Assembly: GCA_007117135.1 (NCBI GenBank)
Contig: SKHB01000022.1
Coordinates: 62,001 to 126,000, forward strand
Direction: 5' to 3'
DNA length: 64,000 nt
From: Microbacteriaceae bacterium
GTDB lineage: Bacteria; Actinomycetota; Actinomycetes; Actinomycetales; Microbacteriaceae
Part shown: in pieces, positions 15,982 through 31,523 of the stretch
Position numbering within the stretch: position 1 is the stretch's first letter
Layout: each line of letters begins with the position of its first letter
Made by a program: the position numbers and the translations under genes
Notes under the pieces: model-generated
What the model saw: only the letters and a program-made list of their open reading frames with translations
Told to the model about the DNA's origin: nothing
Database searches by the model: none

Positions 15982-16627
15982 CGAGCCGCTGTGGGTGCAC
16001 GAAGCTGCGACGGTGGAGGGCAGTCAGACCATGCTCACGAAGAGCCTCCATATGCCGAGCCGAGCCATACCCTTTATGGGAATCAAAACCATACGCCGGG
16101 TGTTTCGCGGCAAAACGTCGCATCAAACTATCTCGCTCCGCTTTCGCCACTATCGACGCCGCAGCCACACTCACACAATCCCGATCAGCCTTCACCTGTG
16201 TCACGACCGGAATAGGTGCGGGCAGGACCGCTGACAGCCAATCCTGCGACCCATCGAGTAACACAATCGGTGTCGTCCCCTCAGCAAACCGTCCAACCAG
16301 TTCAGTGACCGCTCGAACGGCGGCCACTCCAAGCGCCGGAACAATTCCGTTCCGATCAATTTCGTCAGGCTCAGCGTGGCCGACCGCCACCAGACTCACC
16401 CACTGTTTGACCGAAGCGGCGAGGCCATCTCTCGACTTTTCCGGAACCAACTTCGAATCGCGAATTCCCACCGGTGGCTCGCCCGCTCCCGGCCACCAGG
16501 CAACCGCACCCACGCTCACAGGCCCGGCAAGTGCACCTCGCCCCACCTCGTCCACACCAATGACAACAGAAAAACCTTGCACAATGAGCCTCTGCTCCAC
16601 CTTTAGGTGGGGAAGCGCTGCAGTCAC
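15965..16627 (-). CDS. rnhB: Ribonuclease HII
   Basis: VVIGVDEVGRGALAGPVSVGAV...VKADRDCVSVAAASIVAKAERD. Confidence 0.93.
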   Translation of the reverse strand: MTAALPHLKVEQRLIVQGFSVVIGVDEVGRGALAGPVSVGAVAWWPGAGEPPVGIRDSKLVPEKSRDGLAASVKQWVSLVAVGHAEPDEIDRNGIVPALGVAAVRAVTELVGRFAEGTTPIVLLDGSQDWLSAVLPAPIPVVTQVKADRDCVSVAAASIVAKAERDSLMRRFAAKHPAYGFDSHKGYGSARHMEALREHGLTALHRRSFVHPQRLVASSD

Positions 16628-17343
16628 GGGAGACCTTGGAAGGTTGTCGGGAAGTTGCCCAGCCATTGCCACCTGTCGATCGGCCAGCTAATGACCACTG
16701 CCCGCCCCACGACGTTGTCGAGGGGAACAAAGCCGCCACCCGGCTTATCTTGGTTCGCCCTCGAATCAGCAGAGTTGTAGCGGTTGTCACCCATCACCCA
16801 CAGGGCATTGTCTGGGACGGTGACAGAAAAACTCTGCCCCGAGGCGGCATCCACGCCATCAGGGAGTTTCAAATACGGCTCATCGAGGGCAACCCCGTTC
16901 ACCGTCATTGCCCCCAAGGCGTCGCAACACACCACGGTGTCGCCCGGCACCCCAACGACGCGCTTGATCAAGTGCTGTTCCCCCGAGGTGTCTCGCATAC
17001 CCAAACGCTGACCCACCCAGTTGAACAGGCGACTCAGTGGGTCATTTTCTGACACCACCCCGGACGGTAACCAACCACCCGGATCAACAAACACCACAAC
17101 GTCACCGCGGTTGACCCTAAACGGTCCGGGAGTCAACTGACTCACAATGACCCGGTCATCGATGGCCAGTGTCTGCTCCATCGACGATGTGGGAATGTGA
17201 AACGAACGGACCAGGAAAGTCTTCATCAAAAAAGAGACGACCAAAGCGGCAACGACGACGATTACGATGTCGCGCAAAACAATGAGCGTTGCGTGACCAA
17301 AGCCACCAACTTTTCTCCGGCTACCCACGAAGGTCACCACCAC
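16624..17343 (-). CDS. lepB: Signal peptidase I
   Basis: FHIPTSSMEQTLAIDDRVIV...LIKRVVGVPGDTV...WVMGDNRYNSADSR. Confidence 0.95.
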   Translation of the reverse strand: MVVTFVGSRRKVGGFGHATLIVLRDIVIVVVAALVVSFLMKTFLVRSFHIPTSSMEQTLAIDDRVIVSQLTPGPFRVNRGDVVVFVDPGGWLPSGVVSENDPLSRLFNWVGQRLGMRDTSGEQHLIKRVVGVPGDTVVCCDALGAMTVNGVALDEPYLKLPDGVDAASGQSFSVTVPDNALWVMGDNRYNSADSRANQDKPGGGFVPLDNVVGRAVVISWPIDRWQWLGNFPTTFQGLP

Positions 17344-18584: not shown

Positions 18585-19363
18585 TGGTTTTTCGAAAGCG
18601 CCATCCATCGGCTGACGATGTGATGCCTGCTGGACAGTTTGTGGCAGGCGTGCTCAGCGCTTTGGAAGCTGCTGCGACACCGGGTGTCAACCTGTTGGAA
18701 CTTGATCGAATCGCATCGGGCATGATTGCCGACGCCGGTGCCACGAGTTGTTATGTGGACTACCACCCCTCATTTGGCGGCTCACCGTTTGGCAAAGTAC
18801 TCTGCACCTCTGTCAACGATGCCGTATTGCATGGCCTACCGCGAGACCAAGTGCTCGCTCCAGGCGACCTACTCTCGGTCGACTTTGCCGTGTCATTGAA
18901 TGGCTGGGTAGCCGACTCAGCGCTCAGCGTTGTTGTTGGTGACGGCGCTGACGCTGACCGCCAGCTCATCGCCGCTACCAGGGAAGCCCTCCAAGAGGGA
19001 ATCAATCAGGCGATTCCCGGAAACCGGGTGGGGGATATTTCCGCGGCCATTGGTGTGGTCGGTAAAGACTACGGGTACCTCATCAACACCGACTTTGGCG
19101 GTCACGGTGTTGGTCGCACCATGCACGAAGACCCATCCATTCCCAACGATGGAACTCCTGGAACCGGCCCCAAACTTGTCCCCGGGATGGCTCTTGCCAT
19201 TGAACCGTGGTTTATGCACACCACCGACGAGATTGTCACCGACGAGGATGGCTGGACACTTCGAAGTGTTGATGGCTCACGCGGTGCCCATTCCGAACAC
19301 ACCGTGGTGGTCACAAAAGATGGCCCCGTTATCGTGACCAGGCGCCACGACGAAGACTTCTAA
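18584..19363 (+). CDS. map: Type I methionine aminopeptidase
   Basis: CTSVNDAVLHGLP...GDLLSVDFAVSLNGWVADSA...GHGVGRTMHEDPSIPN...GMALAIEPW. Confidence 0.93.
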   Translation: MVFRKRHPSADDVMPAGQFVAGVLSALEAAATPGVNLLELDRIASGMIADAGATSCYVDYHPSFGGSPFGKVLCTSVNDAVLHGLPRDQVLAPGDLLSVDFAVSLNGWVADSALSVVVGDGADADRQLIAATREALQEGINQAIPGNRVGDISAAIGVVGKDYGYLINTDFGGHGVGRTMHEDPSIPNDGTPGTGPKLVPGMALAIEPWFMHTTDEIVTDEDGWTLRSVDGSRGAHSEHTVVVTKDGPVIVTRRHDEDF

Positions 19364-19401
19364 TCTTTTGGTCGTAGGTTCGATCCCCGCCGAGGGCACC
19401 A
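19352..19401 (+). other. Degenerate 3' fragment of tRNA-Arg(TCT) (anticodon arm, variable loop, T arm, acceptor 3' strand, CCA); possible attachment-site scar
   Basis: gaaga-CTTCTAA-tcttt anticodon arm, tggtc variable loop, gtagg-TTCGATC-cccgc T arm (one A-C mismatch), cgagggc acceptor strand, A, CCA. No canonical 5' acceptor/D-arm half; that DNA is map coding sequence. Confidence 0.7.
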
Positions 19402-19421
19402 AGTCTTTGTATGGTTTCGCC

Positions 19422-19476
19422 TGATGCGTGACATTACGTGTCCGGGTGATGGGCGACATGTGTTCGCTTGATGCGC
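19422..19476 (+). repeat. Iterated TGATG-containing motif at a presumptive IS481-type element end
   Basis: TGATGCGTGACATTACGTGTCCGGG / TGATGGGCGACATGTGTTCGCT / TGATGCGC in tandem immediately upstream of a transposase-like ORF. Confidence 0.5.
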
Positions 19477-19934
19477 AGCACTTCATTCATGTTGACAGAG
19501 ACCAGAGATATAGAACAACGTTATCAAGCCGTTTTGGGGGTGATTCGGGATGGTGTCCCAATTGTTGAGGTGACCCGTCGTTTCGATGCGTCGAGGCAGG
19601 CTGCGCATCGGTGGTTGCCATGGTATCGGGATGAGGGTGTTCAGGGGTTGAAGGACCGTTCTCATGCTCCGCCGAGGTGTGCTTATCAAACAGCTGCCGA
19701 GGTGGAGGTGTGGTTGGTGGAGGCTAGGCGGCGTAACCCTTCGTGGGGGCCGGGGCGTCTGGTGGATGAAGCGGCGAGGATCGGGGTGGGGTCGGCGCCG
19801 TCAAAGTCTGCGGTGTATCGGTTGTTGAAACGCCAAGGGTGATTGACTCGGAGGCGAGGAAACCCCGGGATTGGAAGTTTCGCCCTCAAGCGCGTTTTCG
19901 ATTTCCGAGGGGCAGGAGTGCCTCAAGTTCCTGA
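19468..19934 (+). pseudogene. IS481-family-like transposase remnant (N-terminal HTH only, frameshifted, truncated)
   Basis: VIRDGVPIVEVTRRFDASRQAAHRWLPWYRDEGVQGLKDRSHAPPRCAYQTA...SAVYRLLKRQG, stop at 19842. Homologous-looking sequence continues in another frame (VIDSEARKPRDWKFRPQARF...) to a stop at 19932-19934. Confidence 0.75.
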
Positions 19935-20151
19935 AGATCCACGCCGCTGCGGGAAAAGCCTGGGGAAGGGGCCATCTGTGCGGGTAGAACCTCGGGCACT
20001 GAACGCTGTCACAGCCACAGCGTTGTCTGCCCGCGACGACTGAATTCCGGTCTTTCTCGACGCCTCAGGTTTCAGTGGACATTGCAATTAGGGCTTCTGA
20101 TAGGACTGTAGCAAGCGGGAAATAACGCCGCCGGAATTCTCTCTCCACGGG

Positions 20152-20307
20152 TCATTCTCTTCCGCTCATTGAAATGCCTTTGAGGGTGAGGGGGTCGGCG
20201 TGGTGCACGATGCGGTCGATCATGGCGGGTGCAGCGGCTTGGTCACCAAACACAACACCCCATGCGGAAAAGGCCAGGCCTCGCTCTCGCCAATCTGACA
20301 CATAGTG
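20152..20307 (-). pseudogene. IS21-family IstB (ATPase helper) C-terminal remnant
   Basis: Minus-strand translation HYVSDWRERGLAFSAWGVVFGDQAAAPAMIDRIVHHADPLTLKGISMSGRE* matches the IstB C-terminal pattern (FGD..vA.AMIDRlvHHA..l.lKG). Confidence 0.75.
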
Positions 20308-20876
20308 AAGAAGCTCGGAGCTTTAGAGTTTGCGCCTGTCGGAGATTGATTCCGGAACCCCCTCTAGGTGAACATGCCCCCGTTTGTCAGGGTCGGCTTC
20401 CGCGGGCATGAGCGAAGCGACCTAACAGGGTGGAGGTCATTTTGGAAAAGCAGATAGCACCACTCAGAAAACTCGATTCCAGGAAATGTGGTGATTGCCG
20501 TCTCCAAGCGCGATTGGGGAAGGGCCGTCGTGGAGCCGTCTACCTGGCTAAGAATGATGGTGCCCAGTTTGCTGAACAGGCACCCCGGGAATCTTTGCAT
20601 GATCAACTGACTTAACGAGAACGTTTGAAATGGGAGATAACCTCTTTCGAGCCAGTGGAATCGCCGTTTGTCGCGCGAAACTTTGACTCAGGGTGTGACC
20701 GGGGCCGTGCTTGGTTTCCTAACGAATACTTCAAAGGCCCCGGCCTAGGTGAGTTGGTTTCGCGAACAAGGCCCCTCTTCGATTGGGGCTGGACTGATCT
20801 GGCAGAAGGATTTGTCAGCAGGATATGCTCCCGTGAAAAACTTCTCGTTCGGTAATATCCCGTGTAGCCGGGATAA

Positions 20877-21092
20877 CTAGGTGAGTTCCGCGACGAGACT
20901 GATTCCCACTCGGTCGCGGGTTTTCAATCGGGACGAAGATTCTAGAGCTGATTCATCAAAGACAGAAGCACCCTTCCCTTGGTTGGAGTCAAAGACCCCT
21001 TTTCTCACGAGTTGAACTCTCCACGGAGTTTGGGCTATTCGTCGGCCCTGATAGTCCGAGACACACCCTGAACGGTCTTCGCAGGCACTCAT
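20877..21092 (-). CDS. Hypothetical 71-aa ORF directly downstream of GT2; coding status uncertain
   Basis: ATG 4 nt after the GT2 stop; MSACEDRSGCVSDYQGRRIAQTPWRVQLVRKGVFDSNQGKGASVFDESALESSSRLKTRDRVGISLVAELT; no recognised family. Confidence 0.3.
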   Translation of the reverse strand: MSACEDRSGCVSDYQGRRIAQTPWRVQLVRKGVFDSNQGKGASVFDESALESSSRLKTRDRVGISLVAELT

Positions 21093-21096
21093 AGCC

Positions 21097-22092
21097 CTAT
21101 CCAACGCTAGACGATGGAGCGGGTTCAATGACGAGAGGTTTTCTTCGCCGCAAGAATCGAACAGCAGCCCTCCGAGGGCGACCGCGGCGGGCTTCGTTGA
21201 GGAAGCGTAGGCTGACCTGTTCCTCATTTTCAAGAATGTTTTGCCAAGTCAGCGACGTTTTAATGGTCTGTGGAAGCACGTCCCATTGGTTGAGGGCGTG
21301 GCGCCAGTGTCGTTGCGCGAGCACCTCGAGTGCTCGAGCGGTTGAGGAACCGGCTTGATACTCCCGCCGCGAGGAACTGATTGCCAGCCAACTGTGGAGG
21401 GCGCCGCGGATTACCCCCACGGGGTTTCCTCTTGTCGTCAGCGATCCCGGACGCAGCCTCCGATAGAACAACTGTTCGGGCCGGTAGGACACCCTATCGG
21501 CCCGAAGGGTGAGTTGGATAGTGAATACGCTGTCCTCAGACATGTCGTGCAATGGGTATCTGACAGCGCTGTCTCGAACAAGAGATCGACGAGACAACTG
21601 GAGGCAAGGGGAAAAGCTGTAAGCATTCGCGGCGAGTGCAGGCTCGAGGTAGTCAACCCCTTTCCACAAGCGGGTGGCCAGCTGGTGGCGCAGCCTCTGC
21701 ACCCGCCATCCTCCGTGACTTGTTCTCTCACCGTTAATCGACTCAAAGAAAAGGAGGTCAGCGCTGTCCCCACGCGCTCGGTGGACCAGACGCTCCAGTG
21801 CGTCCGGCACGATCCAGTCGTCCGAATCGAGAAAATACAGGTATTCCCCCCGGGCCTGGTCGATACCGAAGTTTCGGGCTGCTCCTGGCCCCTGGTGCTC
21901 TTGGCTCAGTAACCGAACCCGAGAATCGCTGTCTGACCGCGCACGAATAATTTCGACGGAGCGGTCACTCGACCCGTCATCAACACAAATGATGTCCAGC
22001 TTTGGGAGCGTTTGATTTTGGACGCTATCTAGACACTGATTCAGATAGTCCTGAGTATTCCAGACCGGAATGATGACCGAAACATCAGCCAC
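21097..22092 (-). CDS. Glycosyltransferase family 2
   Basis: VSVIIPVWNTQDYLNQCLDSVQNQTLPKLDIICVDDGSSDRSVEII...YLYFLDSDDWIVPDALERLV. Confidence 0.92.
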   Translation of the reverse strand: MADVSVIIPVWNTQDYLNQCLDSVQNQTLPKLDIICVDDGSSDRSVEIIRARSDSDSRVRLLSQEHQGPGAARNFGIDQARGEYLYFLDSDDWIVPDALERLVHRARGDSADLLFFESINGERTSHGGWRVQRLRHQLATRLWKGVDYLEPALAANAYSFSPCLQLSRRSLVRDSAVRYPLHDMSEDSVFTIQLTLRADRVSYRPEQLFYRRLRPGSLTTRGNPVGVIRGALHSWLAISSSRREYQAGSSTARALEVLAQRHWRHALNQWDVLPQTIKTSLTWQNILENEEQVSLRFLNEARRGRPRRAAVRFLRRRKPLVIEPAPSSSVG

Positions 22093-22122
22093 CCCAGCCC
22101 CCCAAGCACCCTGTCAACCTAC

Positions 22123-22215
22123 CTAACCTGACAGGTCGCTTCCAGGAAGGCTTGCCGCCGAAACCTGTCCAACCTTGGTGGCGTCGGGAGCTTCCCAGCT
22201 TTTCTTGGCATTCAT
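22123..22215 (-). CDS. Putative RiPP-like (lasso-type leader) precursor peptide, 30 aa
   Basis: Read by hand: ATG 22215, stop TAG 22123-22125; MNAKKSWEAPDATKVGQVSAASLPGSDLSG. SD GGAAATAGGAG 8 nt upstream of ATG. W-xx-P-x-A-xxx-G-x-V-xxx-S has the spacing of lasso leader YxxPxLxxxGxFxxxT. Cluster contains PqqD/B1-, B2- and HPr-kinase-like genes. Confidence 0.6.
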   Translation of the reverse strand: MNAKKSWEAPDATKVGQVSAASLPGSDLSG

Positions 22216-22443
22216 GTGATTTTCTCCTATTTCCTGTGGATGTGAGTCAGACTAACGCCAGACTCAGTATCTAGCGGTGCAAGTCTCCTGGGCTTGGTCA
22301 CGGCGCTTGCGCAACCGTACTCACCAGCGCTTGGACAACTGAAACCCGTACTTCTTTCCGCTGCATTCTTGGCTACCCTCTCTCCGGGTTCTCTTCAAAA
22401 GCGTATCGCAAGAGTCGCAGCCTGTGCAGTTAATGTTCGACCG

Positions 22444-23310
22444 CTATTCGGTGCCGGACAATCCACTCTGGATTGGTATCCACATCCCAGGTGGCGGGCT
22501 GGGCCAGGCTAGGGCGCCATGTCGAAACCACGGGTCCGGGTAACACACCAGGGATGCTTCACCAAGAAACCCCGCCCACCAACTCCAGGTGCTGTTCGCG
22601 ACAACGAGATATCGGGCCATACTCAGCAAAGTCAGCGACTCGATGGGCCGTGAACTCGGCGGGGGCCTCAGGACCTCAATCCTGCGCCCTCGTGCAAGGC
22701 CAGAAACCCAGGGCAACTCAACTCGCTCTTCTGTCGCGACGATGACCGGTGCGTTGGGTGGCGCGTGGCGCCAGACCTCCTCCAACGCTTTCAGGTAGTA
22801 GTGATGGGGCAAAACACCATGCTGGGGAAGGTGAACGTAGTCACCCCGTCGGATATGAATTCCGATAAACGGTCCCATTTCCCCCAAACGCGCTGACATC
22901 TCAAGAAACCACTTACTGGGGTGGGAGATAATCCGAACCCTACGGCGAATCTCCTCGGCATGTTCCTCAAAGTACCGGGTGATCTGGAAATATCCGCGGA
23001 GTCGCGCCCGAGGCGAAATGTGTGAAACCCTCAGTAGGAGTGGTGAGCACCTGTCGGTCACCAACCAGCGCGACGCCCCCGGGAGACCGGCCAGTCGGTC
23101 GCGATAATGGCTCACTTTCCTCCTGGAGGCTTTCGTTGCCGAGATTCCACTATCGAAGGAATCAAGTTCCCAGGCTCGTGGTGCAGTGGAGGGGTAATGG
23201 ACCGTGTCGGCTTCTAAGGAGACCCCTTTGGCATGAGCGAGCGACCATCCGGCAGCCCAGATAAACAACTGATTGCCCAAACCGCCTGCAGGCTCAATCG
23301 TTATCGCCAT
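22444..23310 (-). CDS. Glycosyltransferase family 11 (alpha-1,2-fucosyltransferase-like)
   Basis: MAITIEPAGGLGNQLFIWAAGWSLAHAKG...FIGIHIRRGDYVHLPQHGVLPHHYYLKALE...VVANSTWSWWAGFLG. Confidence 0.9.
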   Translation of the reverse strand: MAITIEPAGGLGNQLFIWAAGWSLAHAKGVSLEADTVHYPSTAPRAWELDSFDSGISATKASRRKVSHYRDRLAGLPGASRWLVTDRCSPLLLRVSHISPRARLRGYFQITRYFEEHAEEIRRRVRIISHPSKWFLEMSARLGEMGPFIGIHIRRGDYVHLPQHGVLPHHYYLKALEEVWRHAPPNAPVIVATEERVELPWVSGLARGRRIEVLRPPPSSRPIESLTLLSMARYLVVANSTWSWWAGFLGEASLVCYPDPWFRHGALAWPSPPPGMWIPIQSGLSGTE

Positions 23311-23396
23311 CTCAGCTAGCCCACGATTCTTGACAAATAAGAAGAGCGGATGTGTCAGACTCCATAGGACCACAATAGGACGGAGGAAAGAGCCAC

Positions 23397-24155
23397 GTGT
23401 TGCGCACAATCCGTCGGCATCGTGACCTCGCCTGGAGTTACCTCCGCTACCGACGAAACATAGGGACCCGTGGGGGACATAAGCCCCCATCACCTATCGA
23501 TATCCCCAAGGCGCAGGTTGTTCACCTGACGGAACGGTTAGATCGAGCAAAGCATTTTCGCGAGGAGTTTTCCCGTATTGGACTAGACCATGTGATCTTC
23601 GAAGCGACGAAACGCTCCGATGGGGTACTCGGGTGCGCGCTGTCGCACCGTCGCCTTGTGGAGTCCACACACCCAAACGAGGTCACATGGGTCTGCGAAG
23701 ATGACATTACTTTCGATGCCTCCGGTACTACGCTCACCGAGACTCTCAGGTCATTCATTGCTCACCCCGGACTCGATGTCCTCGTGCTTTCGCACAAAAC
23801 ACCCGGCCCCACCCTGCCCATCTCTACAGACTTTGCTCTAACCACCTCCTCTCAAACCACAGCGTCTTATCTCTTCAAGCCGTCAGCAAGAAAAGCGCTG
23901 ATCGGGTCATTTGATCAATCCGCCCTCATGCTCGGTCTAGGAACCCCACCTGAGGTTGCGGCCATAGACATTCACTGGAAGCAATTGCAGGTGTCGCAGC
24001 TGGTTTTCTGTGTTCCACGAAAGGCATTGGCGCATCAAGTGGCCTCCTACTCAGACGTCCAACGGCGGGAGGTCGACTACTATGACAACTCTCGGAATCT
24101 GAAAAAATCGCACGTAGATTTAGGTTTTCGGGCGGGCCCACATGAGGGAGGTTGA
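23397..24155 (+). CDS. Glycosyltransferase family 25-like
   Basis: VVHLTERLDRAKHFREEFSRIGLDHVIFEATKRSDGVLGCALSHRRLVES...WVCEDDITF; overlaps the next gene. Confidence 0.8.
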   Translation: MLRTIRRHRDLAWSYLRYRRNIGTRGGHKPPSPIDIPKAQVVHLTERLDRAKHFREEFSRIGLDHVIFEATKRSDGVLGCALSHRRLVESTHPNEVTWVCEDDITFDASGTTLTETLRSFIAHPGLDVLVLSHKTPGPTLPISTDFALTTSSQTTASYLFKPSARKALIGSFDQSALMLGLGTPPEVAAIDIHWKQLQVSQLVFCVPRKALAHQVASYSDVQRREVDYYDNSRNLKKSHVDLGFRAGPHEGG

Positions 24156-24988
24156 TCGTGCTGGAGACATTTCCCCTTTCACTGTGTCCGACCGGTATGG
24201 TTCCGACCAGGGCCGACTCACCATATGTCCCAATTAGCCCGACGGAAATTGCCGACCAGGTCGCGGAGTGTGCAGAGTTTGGCGTGACCTCGGTTCACCT
24301 CCATGCACGTTCCGATACGGGCGAGCCAGCTTGGCAGCAGGATATCTTTGCCGACATCATTTCCCGAATTCGCCAGGTCACCCCAGATCTTGTTATTTGC
24401 GTTACGACTTCTGGCCGGCGGGAAAGTAGCCTGGAGAAACGCTCGGATGTCCTGTCTCTAGACGGGAACCTCAAGCCCGACATGGCCTCTCTAACGCTTT
24501 CGAGCATGAACTTCGCGACCAGCGCCTCGGTAAATGACCCCGAGACAGTGCAGGCTCTGGCGAGGACGATGCTCAAGAAAGGCATCATCCCCGAGTTGGA
24601 GATTTTTGATACAGGCATGGTGAACTATCTGAACTACCTTCGCCACAAGGGACTTCTCGCGGAACCCCTCGTTGTGAACTTTATTCTTGGAGGCATTGCC
24701 ACCGCGCAGGCCACCCTCCTCGATTTGGGAAGCCTGGTTGAGCGTCTGCCTGACGGTGCCATCTGGTCGGTGGGAGGTATTGGAAGGGCGCAACTTCCCG
24801 CGACAACCATGGCGCTTGCTGCTGGCGGAGGGGTCCGAATCGGTTTGGAGGATAATCTCCACCTGGACTCTTCCCGGTCGAGACTGGCGACCAACAAGGA
24901 CCTAGTTGCACGCATCGTTGAGATTGCTAATCAACTAGGTCGCTCACCAATGAAACCCGATCAATTTAGGGCGGTACTCGCCCGATGA
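24152..24988 (+). CDS. BKACE-family (3-keto-5-aminohexanoate cleavage-like) protein
   Basis: CPTGMVPTRADSPYVPISPTEIADQVAECAEFGVTSVHLHARSDTGEPAWQQDIFADII...GIIPELEIFDTGMVNYL...GGGVRIGLEDNLHLD. Confidence 0.88.
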   Translation: MIVLETFPLSLCPTGMVPTRADSPYVPISPTEIADQVAECAEFGVTSVHLHARSDTGEPAWQQDIFADIISRIRQVTPDLVICVTTSGRRESSLEKRSDVLSLDGNLKPDMASLTLSSMNFATSASVNDPETVQALARTMLKKGIIPELEIFDTGMVNYLNYLRHKGLLAEPLVVNFILGGIATAQATLLDLGSLVERLPDGAIWSVGGIGRAQLPATTMALAAGGGVRIGLEDNLHLDSSRSRLATNKDLVARIVEIANQLGRSPMKPDQFRAVLAR

Positions 24989-25749
24989 GTGAATCTCTCC
25001 TTCTCATTGGCGAGCCAAATAATGGTGCCAGGGAGATTTACGAGACCTCCCTGCTCCTAGGTTATCGGCCGGTGTTTGTGCTCGCCGATGGGGGAGCGGT
25101 CCCAGGCGGCTGGGACCAATATTGCTGGGAGACCCTCCCCCATGAGCTGAAAAACTATCCGGCGTTTCTCGCCGCAGCAATTATTCCCGAGGAGCTTCGC
25201 TCCCTACGGATTGATCGACGGTGGCTGGTGGCCGAGCAACGCGCAATTGCGGACGCTGCCGCCCACGGAGTGTCGAACTGGACCACCCTGGTTCATCCCT
25301 CAGCCCAGGTAAGTCAATCTGCAGAAATCGGACGCGGCGTGTTTATTGGTCCACTGGCGAGCGTGTCGAGTTCGGCCAGAGTGGGAGATTTCGCCGTGGT
25401 CGGCAGAAACAGCTCTCTGGGACACGATTCCACCCTGGGTGATTTCAGTCGCCTGGGGCCAGGCGCCGTCGTCCCCGGTGCGGTGACCATCGGCGCAGGG
25501 GTGGTCATTGGACCGGCGGCAACCGTCATCAATGGAATACGGATTGGAGACGGAGTATTGGTGGGAGCAGGCTCAGTCGTCACGCGTCACATTCGACGCC
25601 CGATTCAAGTTATGGGAAACCCGGCCCGGCCACTACGGAGACCCCTCAGCATGGTTCGACGTGCTCTGAAAAGAGTCACCCGGAGGTCCCTCATTAAGGC
25701 CGGTTTGTATGGGCGAGCCCGCGATGCCTACCGCAGAAAATTCGGCTGA
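24985..25749 (+). CDS. NeuD-like sugar O-acetyltransferase (left-handed beta-helix)
   Basis: N-terminal Rossmann-like domain; hexapeptide repeats GRGVFIGPLASVSSSARVGDFAVVGRNSSLGHDSTLGDFSRLGPGAVVPGAVTIGAGVVIGPAATVINGIRIGDGVLVGAGSVV. Confidence 0.88.
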   Translation: MSESLLLIGEPNNGAREIYETSLLLGYRPVFVLADGGAVPGGWDQYCWETLPHELKNYPAFLAAAIIPEELRSLRIDRRWLVAEQRAIADAAAHGVSNWTTLVHPSAQVSQSAEIGRGVFIGPLASVSSSARVGDFAVVGRNSSLGHDSTLGDFSRLGPGAVVPGAVTIGAGVVIGPAATVINGIRIGDGVLVGAGSVVTRHIRRPIQVMGNPARPLRRPLSMVRRALKRVTRRSLIKAGLYGRARDAYRRKFG

Positions 25750-25778
25750 TTGGCTCCAGGACGCTTCTCCTCACCGAG

Positions 25779-26984
25779 CTAAATATCTGAATTCGTCCGT
25801 CCTCGAAGTAGCCGGCCAAGCTGCCACAAGAAAGCCTGCACCATGCCGATTCGCCGAGGATGGTCGGCTGTCTTGGGAAACCACACGAGCCCCCGAGCGA
25901 TCATGCGGACGATGAGGGCACGCCTGGAGGAGTAGCGCGACAGGTGCCGAAAATTCCTGCGTAGCGGCCCACCGCCCCCGCGGTTGAGAACCGTGGAAGG
26001 CTCGCCAGGGCCGTGGGAACGTTGAAACATGTCGAACATCGCAACAACATTTCTCGTGCTCGGGTCAGGGAGGCCACCGAGTTCAGGCAAACGGAGACCA
26101 AAAAGGGTTTCGCAGAAACAGACAAGGTCAGCAATGACTTGCCTGGATGCCAAGGGGAGGTCGATGAGGACCCCTCCATCCGCTCGGGCACATAGCCGGA
26201 TAAAGTCGATTAGCCGGCGCAGTGAATGGCAGTAGTCGAGGTAGAAGTGGTAGGCGGAGGCAGCCAAGGCATCACTCGGGTGAAGAGTGCGGATCTCCTG
26301 CCCGCTCAAGCCCACCGTGACGGCGCGACGGAGAAGAGAGCTTGCATCGGGAAGCATCTCAGGTTCTGTCGCCACCCGCCAGTGAACGTCTACTTCAGCC
26401 CAATCCGACCGGTAGGGCAATTCGCGATTGCGGAAACAGACAAACGACCATCCAAGCTTCGAACGAGGACCCAGCGCATAGACGGGGTGGAAACCCGAGC
26501 GTGTAAGCATTCGATCGACGAGGGGGGCGTCCTCTGGTCGAATCAGCACGTCAACATCACCTGCGCCACGAATTGAAGCTTCGGCTGCGCTCATCATCGC
26601 AAGTGGCCACCCTTTGAACACCAGGTGGTCAATGGATTCCTCCGATAAGAGCCGAGAAATGCGAAGCGTCCAGGCGTGGAGGCTTAGTGTAGCGATCTCG
26701 AGGTCGAATTCAGACAGTCGAGACCCCTCCTTGCGAATCTCCCCGATGAGCCCTGGGGTGAGCGAAAAGAATTCGGAATGATGTCGAACAAATCCGGTGA
26801 GACGTTCGCGCTCAACAAGTACGGCGAGTGCTTGGACGGAGACTGCTCGGGGTGGGATCAATGGTGGCTCGGCGGTCCGAATCAGCGAAAGTTCCGTGGC
26901 GAGACTCTCAGCGATTAACTGAATCAGCAGATCACGTTCCAGGTTCACGTTCGAACCCTGACGCCTCGCATCTTGGCTCATCAA
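25779..26984 (-). CDS. Nucleotidyltransferase family protein (NTP_transf_5-like)
   Basis: SIDHLVFKGWPLAMMSAAEASIRGAGDVDVLIRPEDAPLVDRMLTRSGF...WAEVDVHWRVATEP; ATGA overlap with the B2 gene. Confidence 0.85.
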   Translation of the reverse strand: MMSQDARRQGSNVNLERDLLIQLIAESLATELSLIRTAEPPLIPPRAVSVQALAVLVERERLTGFVRHHSEFFSLTPGLIGEIRKEGSRLSEFDLEIATLSLHAWTLRISRLLSEESIDHLVFKGWPLAMMSAAEASIRGAGDVDVLIRPEDAPLVDRMLTRSGFHPVYALGPRSKLGWSFVCFRNRELPYRSDWAEVDVHWRVATEPEMLPDASSLLRRAVTVGLSGQEIRTLHPSDALAASAYHFYLDYCHSLRRLIDFIRLCARADGGVLIDLPLASRQVIADLVCFCETLFGLRLPELGGLPDPSTRNVVAMFDMFQRSHGPGEPSTVLNRGGGGPLRRNFRHLSRYSSRRALIVRMIARGLVWFPKTADHPRRIGMVQAFLWQLGRLLRGRTNSDI

Positions 26985-27475
26985 TCCTTGGCACTAGTTG
27001 CAGTTGGGACGGTGGAGTGCCCTGACAAGCGGAACATAGTGGCGGGGAAGAAACCTTCCTTCTCGAGCTCACCAATGATTGTTTCCCTTCGGGAAATCAG
27101 CCAGGCGTGTGCCGGCCAGTTGGCATTACCTTCTGGTTTCAAGCCAATGACCACGTCGCCGGGAATGTTCCAGGATAGGAGGATGCGCTGCCCGGTGAAC
27201 GCCCGAGCCAAGCACGATGGTTTCCACGGCAGTGCCCTGGACGCCCGATAAATGGCTTCCTTCAATTCGTTGTGTCGAGAATTGGTCTCCTCCGAACCCA
27301 GAAGGGTTGTCGGCTGAGAGTCGGGAACTGGGCCCGGAGTGCCCAAGAGGGAACCCCACCAGGTCATCGGGACCGCCCGCTGAAGAAACGTGCCCACGAT
27401 TAGAAGCAGCCATGCCTGCACCAGAAGGGGAACTCTGCGCCGCGGAGCATCAGGGCCGGAGATTGTTTCGCTCAC
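26981..27475 (-). CDS. Lasso-peptide biosynthesis B2-type (transglutaminase-like) protein
   Basis: PWKPSCLARAFTGQRILLSWNIPGDVVIGLKPEGNANWPAHAWLISRRETIIGE: Cys/His arrangement of B2 proteases, N-terminal hydrophobic helix. Confidence 0.82.
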   Translation of the reverse strand: MSETISGPDAPRRRVPLLVQAWLLLIVGTFLQRAVPMTWWGSLLGTPGPVPDSQPTTLLGSEETNSRHNELKEAIYRASRALPWKPSCLARAFTGQRILLSWNIPGDVVIGLKPEGNANWPAHAWLISRRETIIGELEKEGFFPATMFRLSGHSTVPTATSAKD

Positions 27476-27513
27476 GCCACCACTCTAGAGAATCGCGCGT
27501 GCAATAATGTACT

Positions 27514-27780
27514 GTGCGGACCGTAGAGAGACACCCAGATGCCGTTGACGCCACTGTCGAGGATGAGCTGGTCGTGATGAACATCCAATCTCTTGACTAT
27601 TACCGATTCAACGAGGTGGCCAGAACCATTTGGGCTTTGCTTTCTGAAGGACCCCGAACTGAAGACTCAATTTGTGAGGCGCTTCTCCAGGAATACGAGG
27701 TGGACGATAGCGAGTGTCGGGCTTCGGTGGCGACATTCCTCGACGATGCCCTGACACGCCATTTTCTGCGTTCCGTGTGA
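27514..27780 (+). CDS. PqqD-family (RiPP recognition element / lasso B1-like) protein
   Basis: DELVVMNIQSLDYYRFNEVARTIWALLSEGPRTEDSICEALLQEYEVDDSECRASVATFLDDALTRHFL; divergent from B2. Confidence 0.85.
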   Translation: MRTVERHPDAVDATVEDELVVMNIQSLDYYRFNEVARTIWALLSEGPRTEDSICEALLQEYEVDDSECRASVATFLDDALTRHFLRSV

Positions 27781-28781
27781 CTGATCAGGTCTCAGGTCGG
27801 TTTTTCCTTGCCTTTGGCAGGGTCATCGAATCGGATATCGACCTTCCTCTACTGGCGGAAATTAAAAGTTCAGAGATCCTGAGAGTCGAAGCGCAAATCG
27901 TCGTGGATAATAACCCGATTCCTGTCCCACCGGCTCTAATTTCAAGGAATCCAGCACAGTCCATCACCTTTCACAGAGGACCAAGCCAGGTGGTGGTAGT
28001 GATGCATCAGCTCGGCTGGTTAGCCCGCCTGTGGTCCGCCTCCACCACAATCACACTTCACCCCATTGCCCGGGGAGTGACGAGCCGTGGCGGAGCGATT
28101 AGGACGGCGAATCGAGTGCTTAGTGACAGAGTGGTGACGAACGTGTTGCCCTATCTCCCGCAGCTCTGGGGACTGTGGGGAATCCATGGAGCACTTCTCG
28201 ACACCCCGGGAGGGGGAGTGATGCTCCTTGGACCAAGTTGGTCTGGAAAGTCCACGCTTAGTCAAGTACTCGCACGAGATCACGGGTGGTGGATTCTCGA
28301 CGACGACACCTCTATGGTGACCGAGATAGAGCCACCTTGTTCTTTCGCTCCCATGGGTGCCAAAGCACGATTACGTGAAGACGCGGCAATGTACCTCGGA
28401 ATTGATATCGATAGTTTGGAGAGTTACTCCGGGCGCAAAGGCATTCTGAGTAACGAGGTGCAGCCCCGCCCTCATGCTTCTCAGGGCGTCCAAGCCTTTG
28501 TCACCGTGAAACCGGTGGACGCCCCGGTGCGTACCATCAGCGCACGAACGCGACCTGAATGCACTGCACTCTCCGGGTTGGAGGCCATGCATTCGATTTT
28601 CGAAAGCTTTTTCAGCATCGAGTCCGACCTGCGGACAGTCATTCAGCGCCAGCTATCACTTTCCGCCAAACTGTCCCGAATTCCTCACGTAAGCGTCCGT
28701 TACAGTAGAGGCCTTCACACGCCAGAACAAACTGCGCAGGAAATTGCCAGTGCGATTGGGCCCTTTTTGGAAGTTAAGTAG
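27777..28781 (+). CDS. HPr-kinase-like P-loop protein
   Basis: GTG at 27777 overlaps the PqqD stop (GTGA); Walker A GPSWSGKSTLSQVLARDHGWWILDDDTSMV; overall HprK-related architecture. Confidence 0.8.
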   Translation: MTDQVSGRFFLAFGRVIESDIDLPLLAEIKSSEILRVEAQIVVDNNPIPVPPALISRNPAQSITFHRGPSQVVVVMHQLGWLARLWSASTTITLHPIARGVTSRGGAIRTANRVLSDRVVTNVLPYLPQLWGLWGIHGALLDTPGGGVMLLGPSWSGKSTLSQVLARDHGWWILDDDTSMVTEIEPPCSFAPMGAKARLREDAAMYLGIDIDSLESYSGRKGILSNEVQPRPHASQGVQAFVTVKPVDAPVRTISARTRPECTALSGLEAMHSIFESFFSIESDLRTVIQRQLSLSAKLSRIPHVSVRYSRGLHTPEQTAQEIASAIGPFLEVK

Positions 28782-29137
28782 CACTACGTCCGCCGACGTC
28801 TGCTCCTGCCGTTGCTGAACATTGAACGCAATTGAACAACAGGAGCGATTGAGATCCTCGCTCGACGCGGAGGATGACCATTAGGCAACTAAGGCACCTT
28901 GCCTCCACGAGCGTCCTGCAGTCTTGCACCTACAACGCCCCCCAAAAATAGATGGGAGTGACCTGACGACCGTCCGCCGGACACTGCCCCCACTGGTACT
29001 GATGGCTGTCCACTAGTGACAGTCGCCACAGGTCCCAATGTGGCGAGCGCTGAGCACGACGTTGTGGGCACGGCCCTGGACTTGCTTGCCTACTCCCCCG
29101 TGCATACGAGGAAAAAGACTCTCTTGCCCAAATCGTT

Positions 29138-29821
29138 CTAATCCTCAGTCAAAAGGTCTGGCCGCATCTCGCGGGTTCTTTTTTTCGCCTGTTCGGCTCG
29201 CCAAGAACGAATCTCCCCGTGGTGACCGCTCAGCAACACATCCGGGACGGACAACCCCCGCCACTCGGCAGGTTTCGTGTATACCGGGTATTCCAGTAAA
29301 CCGTCCTCGTGGCTTTCCTCGACAAGCGACTCGGGGTTACCCAGCACTCCAGGAATCAACCGGCCAACGGCCTCCACTATCGCCAAAACGGCCACCTCGC
29401 CACCGTTCAACACATAGTCACCCACGCTCACGCTCAGCACGTCGTGCGTCTGGGCGTAGTAGTCAATGACCCGCTGGTCAATGCCCTCATACCTGCCACA
29501 AGCAAACACCAGGTGGTCCACGCCGCTCAACGCCTTTGCGGTGTCCTGGTGAAAAAGACGACCAGAGGGCGTGGGAACGACCAGGGTGCTGGTGGGAGTC
29601 AACACCTCATCCAGCGCCCTCCCCCACGGTTCGGGCATCATGACCATGCCGGCACCCCCACCATAGGGAGAGTCATCAACGGTCTTGTGAACATCTTCAG
29701 TCCACGACCTCAGGTCGTGGACTCGAACGTCGAGCAAACCCTTCTCCCGGGCTTTGCCTAACAGCGACACGTCGAGCGGAGCAAAATAGTGGGGAAAAAT
29801 GGTGATGATGTCGATGCGCAC
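29138..29821 (-). CDS. trmD: tRNA (guanine-N1)-methyltransferase
   Basis: [61 protein letters not shown]. Confidence 0.97.
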
Positions 29822-30661: not shown

Positions 30662-31360
30662 CTAGTTGTCGTCCTTCTTGGGTTCTTCTTCGGCAGCCGT
30701 CGCCTCGTCGGCAACGGCGGCTTCCTCTGCGGGGGCGGCTTCAGCGGGCGCAGGTGCTTCTTCAGCAGCCGGCGCTTCGTCCACAGGAGCAGCCTCGTCA
30801 GCAACGGCGGCTTCCTCTGCGGGGGCGGCTTCAGCGGGCGCAGGTGCTTCTTCAGCAGCCGGCGCTTCGTCCACAGGAGCAGCCTCGTCGGCAGCGGCGG
30901 CTTCCTCTACGGGAGCCTCTGTCGCAGGAGCGTCGGCGCTGACCGGAGCCTCTTCGGAGACCTCGGCGACTGCGGGAGTTGCTTCAGCTTTCGGAGCCTC
31001 TTCCTTCTTGGCGGACTTGGGGCGAAGAACGGGCTTCTTTTTGGCGTCTGCCTGGAATTCAGGTTTCGGCTCAGCAACCTGAACAGTGCTCTTCGCACCT
31101 TTCTCACCTTTAAAGGTTCCCCAGTCGCCGGTGAGTTTCAAAATTGCCATGACCTGTTCGGTGGGCTGGGCGCCCACACCAAGCCAGTACTGGGCACGAT
31201 CCGACTTGACCTCAATGAAAGAAGGGTTTTCGGTCGGGTGGTATTTTCCGATTTCTTCAATAACTCGACCGTCACGCTTGGTGCGTGAGTCGGCGACGAC
31301 GATTCGGTAGTAGGGCGCACGAATTTTTCCCATGCGCTTCAAACGGATTTTGACAGCCAC
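30662..31360 (-). CDS. rpsP: 30S ribosomal protein S16 with acidic repeat-containing C-terminal extension
   Basis: [47 protein letters not shown]; long Ala/Glu/Pro tail. Confidence 0.96.
30711..30890. repeat. rpsP: Two near-perfect 90-bp tandem repeats encoding 30 aa of the S16 tail (degenerate third copy follows)
   Basis: gcaacggcggcttcctctgcgggggcggcttcagcgggcgcaggtgcttcttcagcagccggcgcttcgtccacaggagcagcctcgtc at 30711 and 30801; degenerate restart at 30891. Confidence 0.93.
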
Positions 31361-31523
31361 TTTTCTCCTGTGGTTTGTGGGCGGTGCAAGGCTCAGTGTC
31401 CAGGTGGGGACCGGCTCTGAGTAAGCGTGTGGTGGCGTCAACACCTGATAGAGGGTCGGGTGAGGACGTCCAGCCCCCTATTGTGTCAGATTCTTCGGCT
31501 GTTCGATAACTGGAAAGGGATTT

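Follow-up and report, generated by a model that had tools for sequence, protein, structure and literature searches.

A candidate precursor gene for a cyclase-less, lasso-derived RiPP in an actinobacterial genomic island

The open reading frame at 22123-22215 of the window (the whole 64,000-nucleotide stretch of DNA analyzed here) probably encodes the precursor of a cyclase-less RiPP of lasso descent, which the enzymes of the surrounding island would process. Its 30-residue product, MNAKKSWEAPDATKVGQVSAASLPGSDLSG, consists of a leader with a WxxPxA RRE motif followed by a core of 7-9 residues, PGSDLSG or SLPGSDLSG. Ordinary gene calling misses this gene.

A gene island between map and trmD

The island (19364..29137, ~9.8 kb) separates map, which ends at 19363, from trmD (at 29138). 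All 8/8 congeners examined have map next to trmD, and here the two genes are ~9.8 kb apart, so the cluster is an insertion. The following features are relevant to the proposed pathway:

21097..22092, minus strand: GT2 glycosyltransferase (PF00535, E=1e-36)
22123..22215, minus strand (22215→22123): candidate precursor ORF, MNAKKSWEAPDATKVGQVSAASLPGSDLSG, 30 aa, ATG start, TAG stop
22223..22235, minus strand: Shine-Dalgarno region of the candidate precursor, GGAAATAGGAG
22444..23493, minus strand: GT11-family glycosyltransferase (PF01531, E=2e-11)
23397..24155, plus strand: GT25-family glycosyltransferase (PF01755, E=2e-7)
24152..24988, plus strand: BKACE, beta-keto acid cleavage enzyme (PF05853, E=2e-82)
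24985..25749, plus strand: NeuD/PglB-type hexapeptide acyltransferase (TIGR03570, E=6e-37, under the curated cut-off; PF00132, E=1e-19)
25779..26984, minus strand: NTP_transf_5 nucleotidyltransferase, a PsmN/LppN-type tailoring enzyme (PF14907, E=1e-24; GAGDVDVLI motif)
26981..27475, minus strand: B2 transglutaminase-like leader peptidase (PF13471, E=2e-11; NF033537, E=7e-13)
27514..27780, plus strand: PqqD-family discrete RRE, B1 (PF05402, E=5e-18)
27714..28781, plus strand: HprK-type RiPP kinase (PF07475, E=0.005, a weak match below the cut-off; H146/K167/D185/D186)

The sequence-only reading had credited the island with PqqD, B2 and HprK-like proteins, and profile matches identify all three, the kinase with its catalytic residues intact. 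The island thus holds both a discrete B1 (RRE) and a B2 leader peptidase. Its RiPP genes are all open and overlap tightly, B2 with NTP_transf_5 and PqqD with HprK. By inspection, the true start of the GT11 gene is probably an ATG near 23310 (MAITIEPAGGLGNQLF). No transporter was recognized among the island ORFs of at least 70 aa, and nearby, lepB, beside rplS (16624-17343) and outside the island, is the sole signal peptidase read.

Several other features of the region were recorded. A segment at 19354-19403 resembles a tRNA 3' half, overlaps the end of map and occurs as a single copy in the genome; it is a possible attachment-site remnant of the island. Transposase and IstB-like fragments (IS481/IstB-like debris) occupy the left end at 19468-20301. 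BKACE lies near a NeuD-type acyltransferase both at 24152-25749 and at L103:7494-10306, so that at least two genomes of the genus have this pairing in a sugar locus; it suggests that a surface sugar carries an unusual acyl group. In another congener (G003), PqqD-like, HprK-like and NTP_transf_5 genes share a sugar locus in which no B2 was seen up to the contig end (L035:3759-8452). Beyond the island, the ribosomal protein bS16 ORF (30662-31444, 260 aa in all) has a long, repetitive, Ala/Glu/Pro-rich C-terminal extension.

The island is rare. With the kinase as query, no close homologue was found among 60 relatives or in genome contigs, and the PqqD and B2 queries returned no close homologue from viral contigs and from plasmids, respectively. 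Distant relatives of B2 were found among 396 genomes of the class, and a narrower B2 alignment (A3) recovered only 6 loci from genome contigs, at 38-40% identity. The sequence-only reading had looked to ORFs with the leader motif in related genomes for support; our searches found no close homologue of the window peptide.

The candidate precursor and its leader

The signals around the ORF are as the sequence-only reading described them. The sequence upstream of the start is AGGAAATAGGAGAAAATCAC-ATG, with GGAG 8 nt before the ATG, and the GT2 start at 22092 leaves a 30-nt gap after the stop codon of the co-directional ORF. An overlapping out-of-frame ATG ORF at 22119-22211 has no motif and a poorer SD spacing. 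A search for a sigma-70-like promoter near the gene found none, and an Rfam search of the island revealed no RNA element.

The lasso-leader spacing proposed at the outset is also correct, with the register W1..P4..A6..G10..V12..S16. Alanine at position 6 had been considered a weaker replacement of leucine, but it belongs to the published motif for discrete RREs, [Y/W]xxPx[L/V/I/A/F/Y] (PMC13381572), which WEAPDA fits, a feature shared with lasso peptides. At position 16, Ser takes the place of the Thr that is usual in lasso leaders.

We scored the leader with a 14-column PSSM built from 14 precursors near B2/PqqD/NTP_transf_5 genes of other genomes, holding out the window peptide. The peptide reaches 14.4 bits on this matrix, whose training precursors were themselves picked by the [YW]xxP motif, and 7/14 of these precursors score below it in leave-one-out. 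When the window was re-sampled 60 times with a second-order Markov model, SD-preceded ORFs scoring at least 14.4 bits arose at 0.033 per 64 kb, which places the score beyond chance. In the non-coding parts of the island, the ORF is the sole SD-preceded one with [YW]xxP. The NF033521 leader model matched nothing else in the genome, and NCBIfam and Pfam left the peptide unmatched.

Cyclase, core and comparison with known systems

No PF00733 (asparagine-synthase/lasso cyclase) match was found in the genome, a MAG that is 86.5% complete, so that a distant cyclase may have escaped the search, and the island has no lasso cyclase gene. The macrolactam cyclase of lasso peptides is therefore missing from what we could search, and the core is equally ill-suited: its Asp stands at position 4 or 6, and there is no space for more residues before the stop codon and the GT2 start. 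The SLPGSDLSG core has paeninodin-like spacing. Neither PGSDLSG nor SLPGSDLSG can form a classical ring and tail, as the sequence-only reading had already argued for [L]PGSDLSG. The window system thus has lasso parts yet is not a lasso peptide system, because no cyclase was found in the MAG and the core is too short for a ring of 7-9 residues plus a threaded tail. A larger core gained by TAG readthrough was rejected, as only two codons are added before a TGA, and no other frame before GT2 supplies one. We likewise rejected a lasso peptide with its cyclase elsewhere in the genome, given the missing ring residues and the missing PF00733 match in the 86.5% complete MAG.

Catalytic residues are intact in the kinase and, for Cys and His, in B2. 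In an alignment of eight RiPP-type kinases, His146, Lys167, Asp185 and Asp186 of the window kinase are the only invariant charged residues; for PadeK-type kinases, the reported catalytic motif is His-Lys-Asp-Asp (PMC9266682). Alignment of B2 shows Cys88 and His123 to be conserved. Gly135 is invariant in the B2 subfamily of the window and stands near what we take to be the expected position of the third catalytic residue, Asp. The RRE offers a possible link between enzyme and peptide. In LppB, Asp70 bonds the leader Tyr (PMC13381572); the window RRE keeps Asn33 and has Ser at the D70 equivalent, and its leader has Trp. Comparator loci with Tyr leaders retain Asp at this position, and the W-leader locus L062 has Gln, as in paeninodin-type PbaB1, while the W-leader loci L064 and L061 keep Asp. 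The correlation suggests, but does not settle, that the window RRE and peptide belong together.

The best match to the window cluster is the lpp clusters of Bacillota. LPPs are linear peptides, polyphosphorylated on core Ser3 by HprK and made with no macrolactam cyclase; they were published in 2026 as a Bacillota-confined family using a signal-peptidase-type leader peptidase (PMC13381572). Both systems have a discrete RRE, a [Y/W]xxP leader, an HprK kinase, an NTP transferase, no cyclase and sugar-gene surroundings, and the LPP gene set of RRE, HprK kinase and NTP transferase without a cyclase is present in the island. The window differs in being actinobacterial and in having a B2 cysteine-peptidase-type gene in place of the SpI-like (SipW-type) LppS, of which the island has none. 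It also lacks the MsbA-like exporter of LPP clusters and the LPP leader consensus beyond YxxP, and its core has 7-9 residues against 45 in LppA. The window system would work like an LPP but falls outside the published LPP definition, having no SpI-like peptidase and no MsbA exporter and not belonging to Bacillota.

Phosphorylated, glycosylated lasso peptides of the paeninodin/pseudomycoidin type share the WxxP leader, B1, B2, an HprK with H-K-D-D, and NTP_transf_5, which in its PsmN-type form adds hexose to phospho-Ser. Here, the peptide ends in ...LSG, so that Ser is penultimate and Gly C-terminal, and the C-terminal Ser acceptor of the paeninodin family is missing, as are the cyclase and a ring-capable core. 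The window system has paeninodin-type parts but neither cyclase nor C-terminal Ser. Among Microbacteriaceae, the lasso peptides of L037-L043 have leaders in the register of the window peptide (MAYEAPTITEVGRFSDITLG...) but differ in the PF00733 matches of their loci and in a longer core after the leader.

Cyclase-less sets of the same enzymes recur in other Actinobacteria. G573, a complete genome with no PF00733 match, encodes an ABC exporter, NTP_transf_5, the precursor MESTTRTAYTAPVLETLDIAETRGVGIDIGIGIGIGS (...GIGIGIGS), B2, HprK and PqqD. The kinase is present in 31/299 genomes of its family, and 25 of these 31 have zero PF00733 matches; the remaining six have theirs on a different contig or at a distance of >90 kb. 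Twenty-nine of the 30 loci of this family (L104-L133) have a YxxP-leader precursor of 33-49 aa, all ending in Ser (L118 with one extra spurious ORF; L130 with a spurious candidate alone). B2 and PqqD matches occur in 30/30, that for B2 in L130 standing apart from the kinase. Two groups of these precursors that align without gaps gave pairwise pN/pS of 0.32 and 0.60, values consistent with genes under selection. We found no description of this Ser-ending group (29 loci, one family) in the literature searched, the coverage of which was partial, and it is apparently undescribed.

The window cluster resembles G573, G377 and these relatives in its single short RRE-motif precursor, B2, HprK and PqqD, in having no cyclase gene near the cluster and, where flanks were examined, in NTP_transf_5 too. 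The differences are a Trp leader instead of Tyr, and a precursor that sits beyond the sugar genes, 4.8 kb from B2/PqqD, instead of directly before B2. The L066/L065 core is about 14-16 residues long, glycine/Ile-Asp-rich and has an invariant C-terminal Ser, against 7-9 residues and a Ser-Gly end in the window. L066 also has an ABC exporter, and the kinases are about 20% identical to that of the window. Other loci with B2 genes encode short W-leader peptides (L063, ...WSAPEVTQVSIVDVDLILSSPT; L061, WQPPTVDEVALVEDARAISQV). In two B2-containing clusters, an HprK-like kinase domain is fused with a GT2 glycosyltransferase (L061:16731-19142) or with a sulfotransferase (L062:9619-11472), which supports a coupling of phosphorylation with further decoration. 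The comparators show that Actinobacteria have short-core, cyclase-free lasso machinery, and they leave the window ORF itself unproven. The window peptide, a putative precursor, would be an extreme short-core relative of the group.

Proposed pathway, alternative readings and meaning

We propose that the discrete RRE (PqqD) of the island captures the WEAPDA motif. The core region contains Ser22, Ser26 and Ser29, and the HprK-type kinase would phosphorylate one of them, once or more, with Ser26 and Ser29 the likelier acceptors and Ser22 the less likely one. NTP_transf_5 would then add a hexose or nucleotidyl group to the serine phosphate, and one or more island glycosyltransferases, above all the adjacent GT2, may extend or decorate it, NeuD and BKACE perhaps supplying an acyl group. 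Cleavage by B2 near Ala21-Leu23 would remove the leader and release a linear phospho- or glyco-peptide of 7-9 residues. No lasso would form, with the cyclase absent and no room for a ring plus tail. We infer every enzymatic step by analogy with LppK, which phosphorylates core Ser3 of LppA (PMC13381572), and with PsmK/PsmN, in which Ser is phosphorylated and hexose is then added (PMC9266682). The earlier suggestion of a minimal RiPP-type precursor rather than a lasso gains from the missing cyclase, the NTP_transf_5 partner, the intact kinase, the cyclase-less actinobacterial clusters and the LPP precedent (PMC13381572); the likely chemistry, phosphorylation followed by glycosylation of a core Ser, did not form part of it. 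Several findings count against our reading: peptide, kinase and island have no close homologue, the core is below the comparators' length and ends in Ser-Gly, the island has no exporter, B2/PqqD lie 4.8 kb off, position 16 is Ser and the MAG is incomplete.

This reading can be extended, tentatively, to a peptide-primed glycan system. A ribosomal peptide with almost no core would serve as a phosphorylated carrier on which the island glycosyltransferases build and modify an oligosaccharide ending at the cell surface, that is, as an RRE-guided, genetically encoded glycan primer of 7-9 residues derived from lasso machinery by cyclase loss. Three glycosyltransferases, NeuD and BKACE share the island, with GT2 directly behind the peptide; the kinase-to-GT2 fusion of L061 and the recurrence of BKACE with NeuD in the congener sugar locus L103 point the same way, and capsule loci also harbour LPPs and paeninodins (PMC13381572). 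However, polymerase, flippase and exporter are absent from the island, and the co-location may only reflect the insertion of a mixed cassette. We consider this extension unlikely.

Slightly less probable still is a decaying lasso/paeninodin-type cluster, which would have arrived as a full set and then lost its cyclase and exporter while the core was truncated, leaving the 30-aa ORF as a remnant. The insertion-sequence debris at the left end, the cyclase not found in the genome, the exporter not found in the island, the very short core and the rarity of the island would fit such a history. Yet the remaining RiPP genes are open and tightly overlapping with their catalytic residues kept, and cyclase-less short-core sets recur in other Actinobacteria. 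Least probable, and in our view improbable, is a chance ORF with the true PqqD/B2/HprK substrate elsewhere in the genome or a larger protein: the peptide has no homologue, is not adjacent to PqqD/B2 and offers little coding signal in 30 codons, but only about 0.03 equally good SD-preceded ORFs are expected per shuffled 64 kb, this one falls inside the island, and neither the island nor the NF033521 search of the genome yields another candidate.

Altogether, to judge from the window island and the 29 comparator loci, cyclase-free lasso machinery exists in Actinobacteria too; a B2-type gene probably supplies its peptidase, and its cores may be as short as 7-9 residues. The shortness of the precursors makes them easy to overlook. 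The invariant C-terminal Ser of the comparators, together with the kinase/NTP_transf_5 pair, allows a direct biochemical test, and the association with glycosyltransferases is relevant to the purpose of phosphorylated RiPPs.
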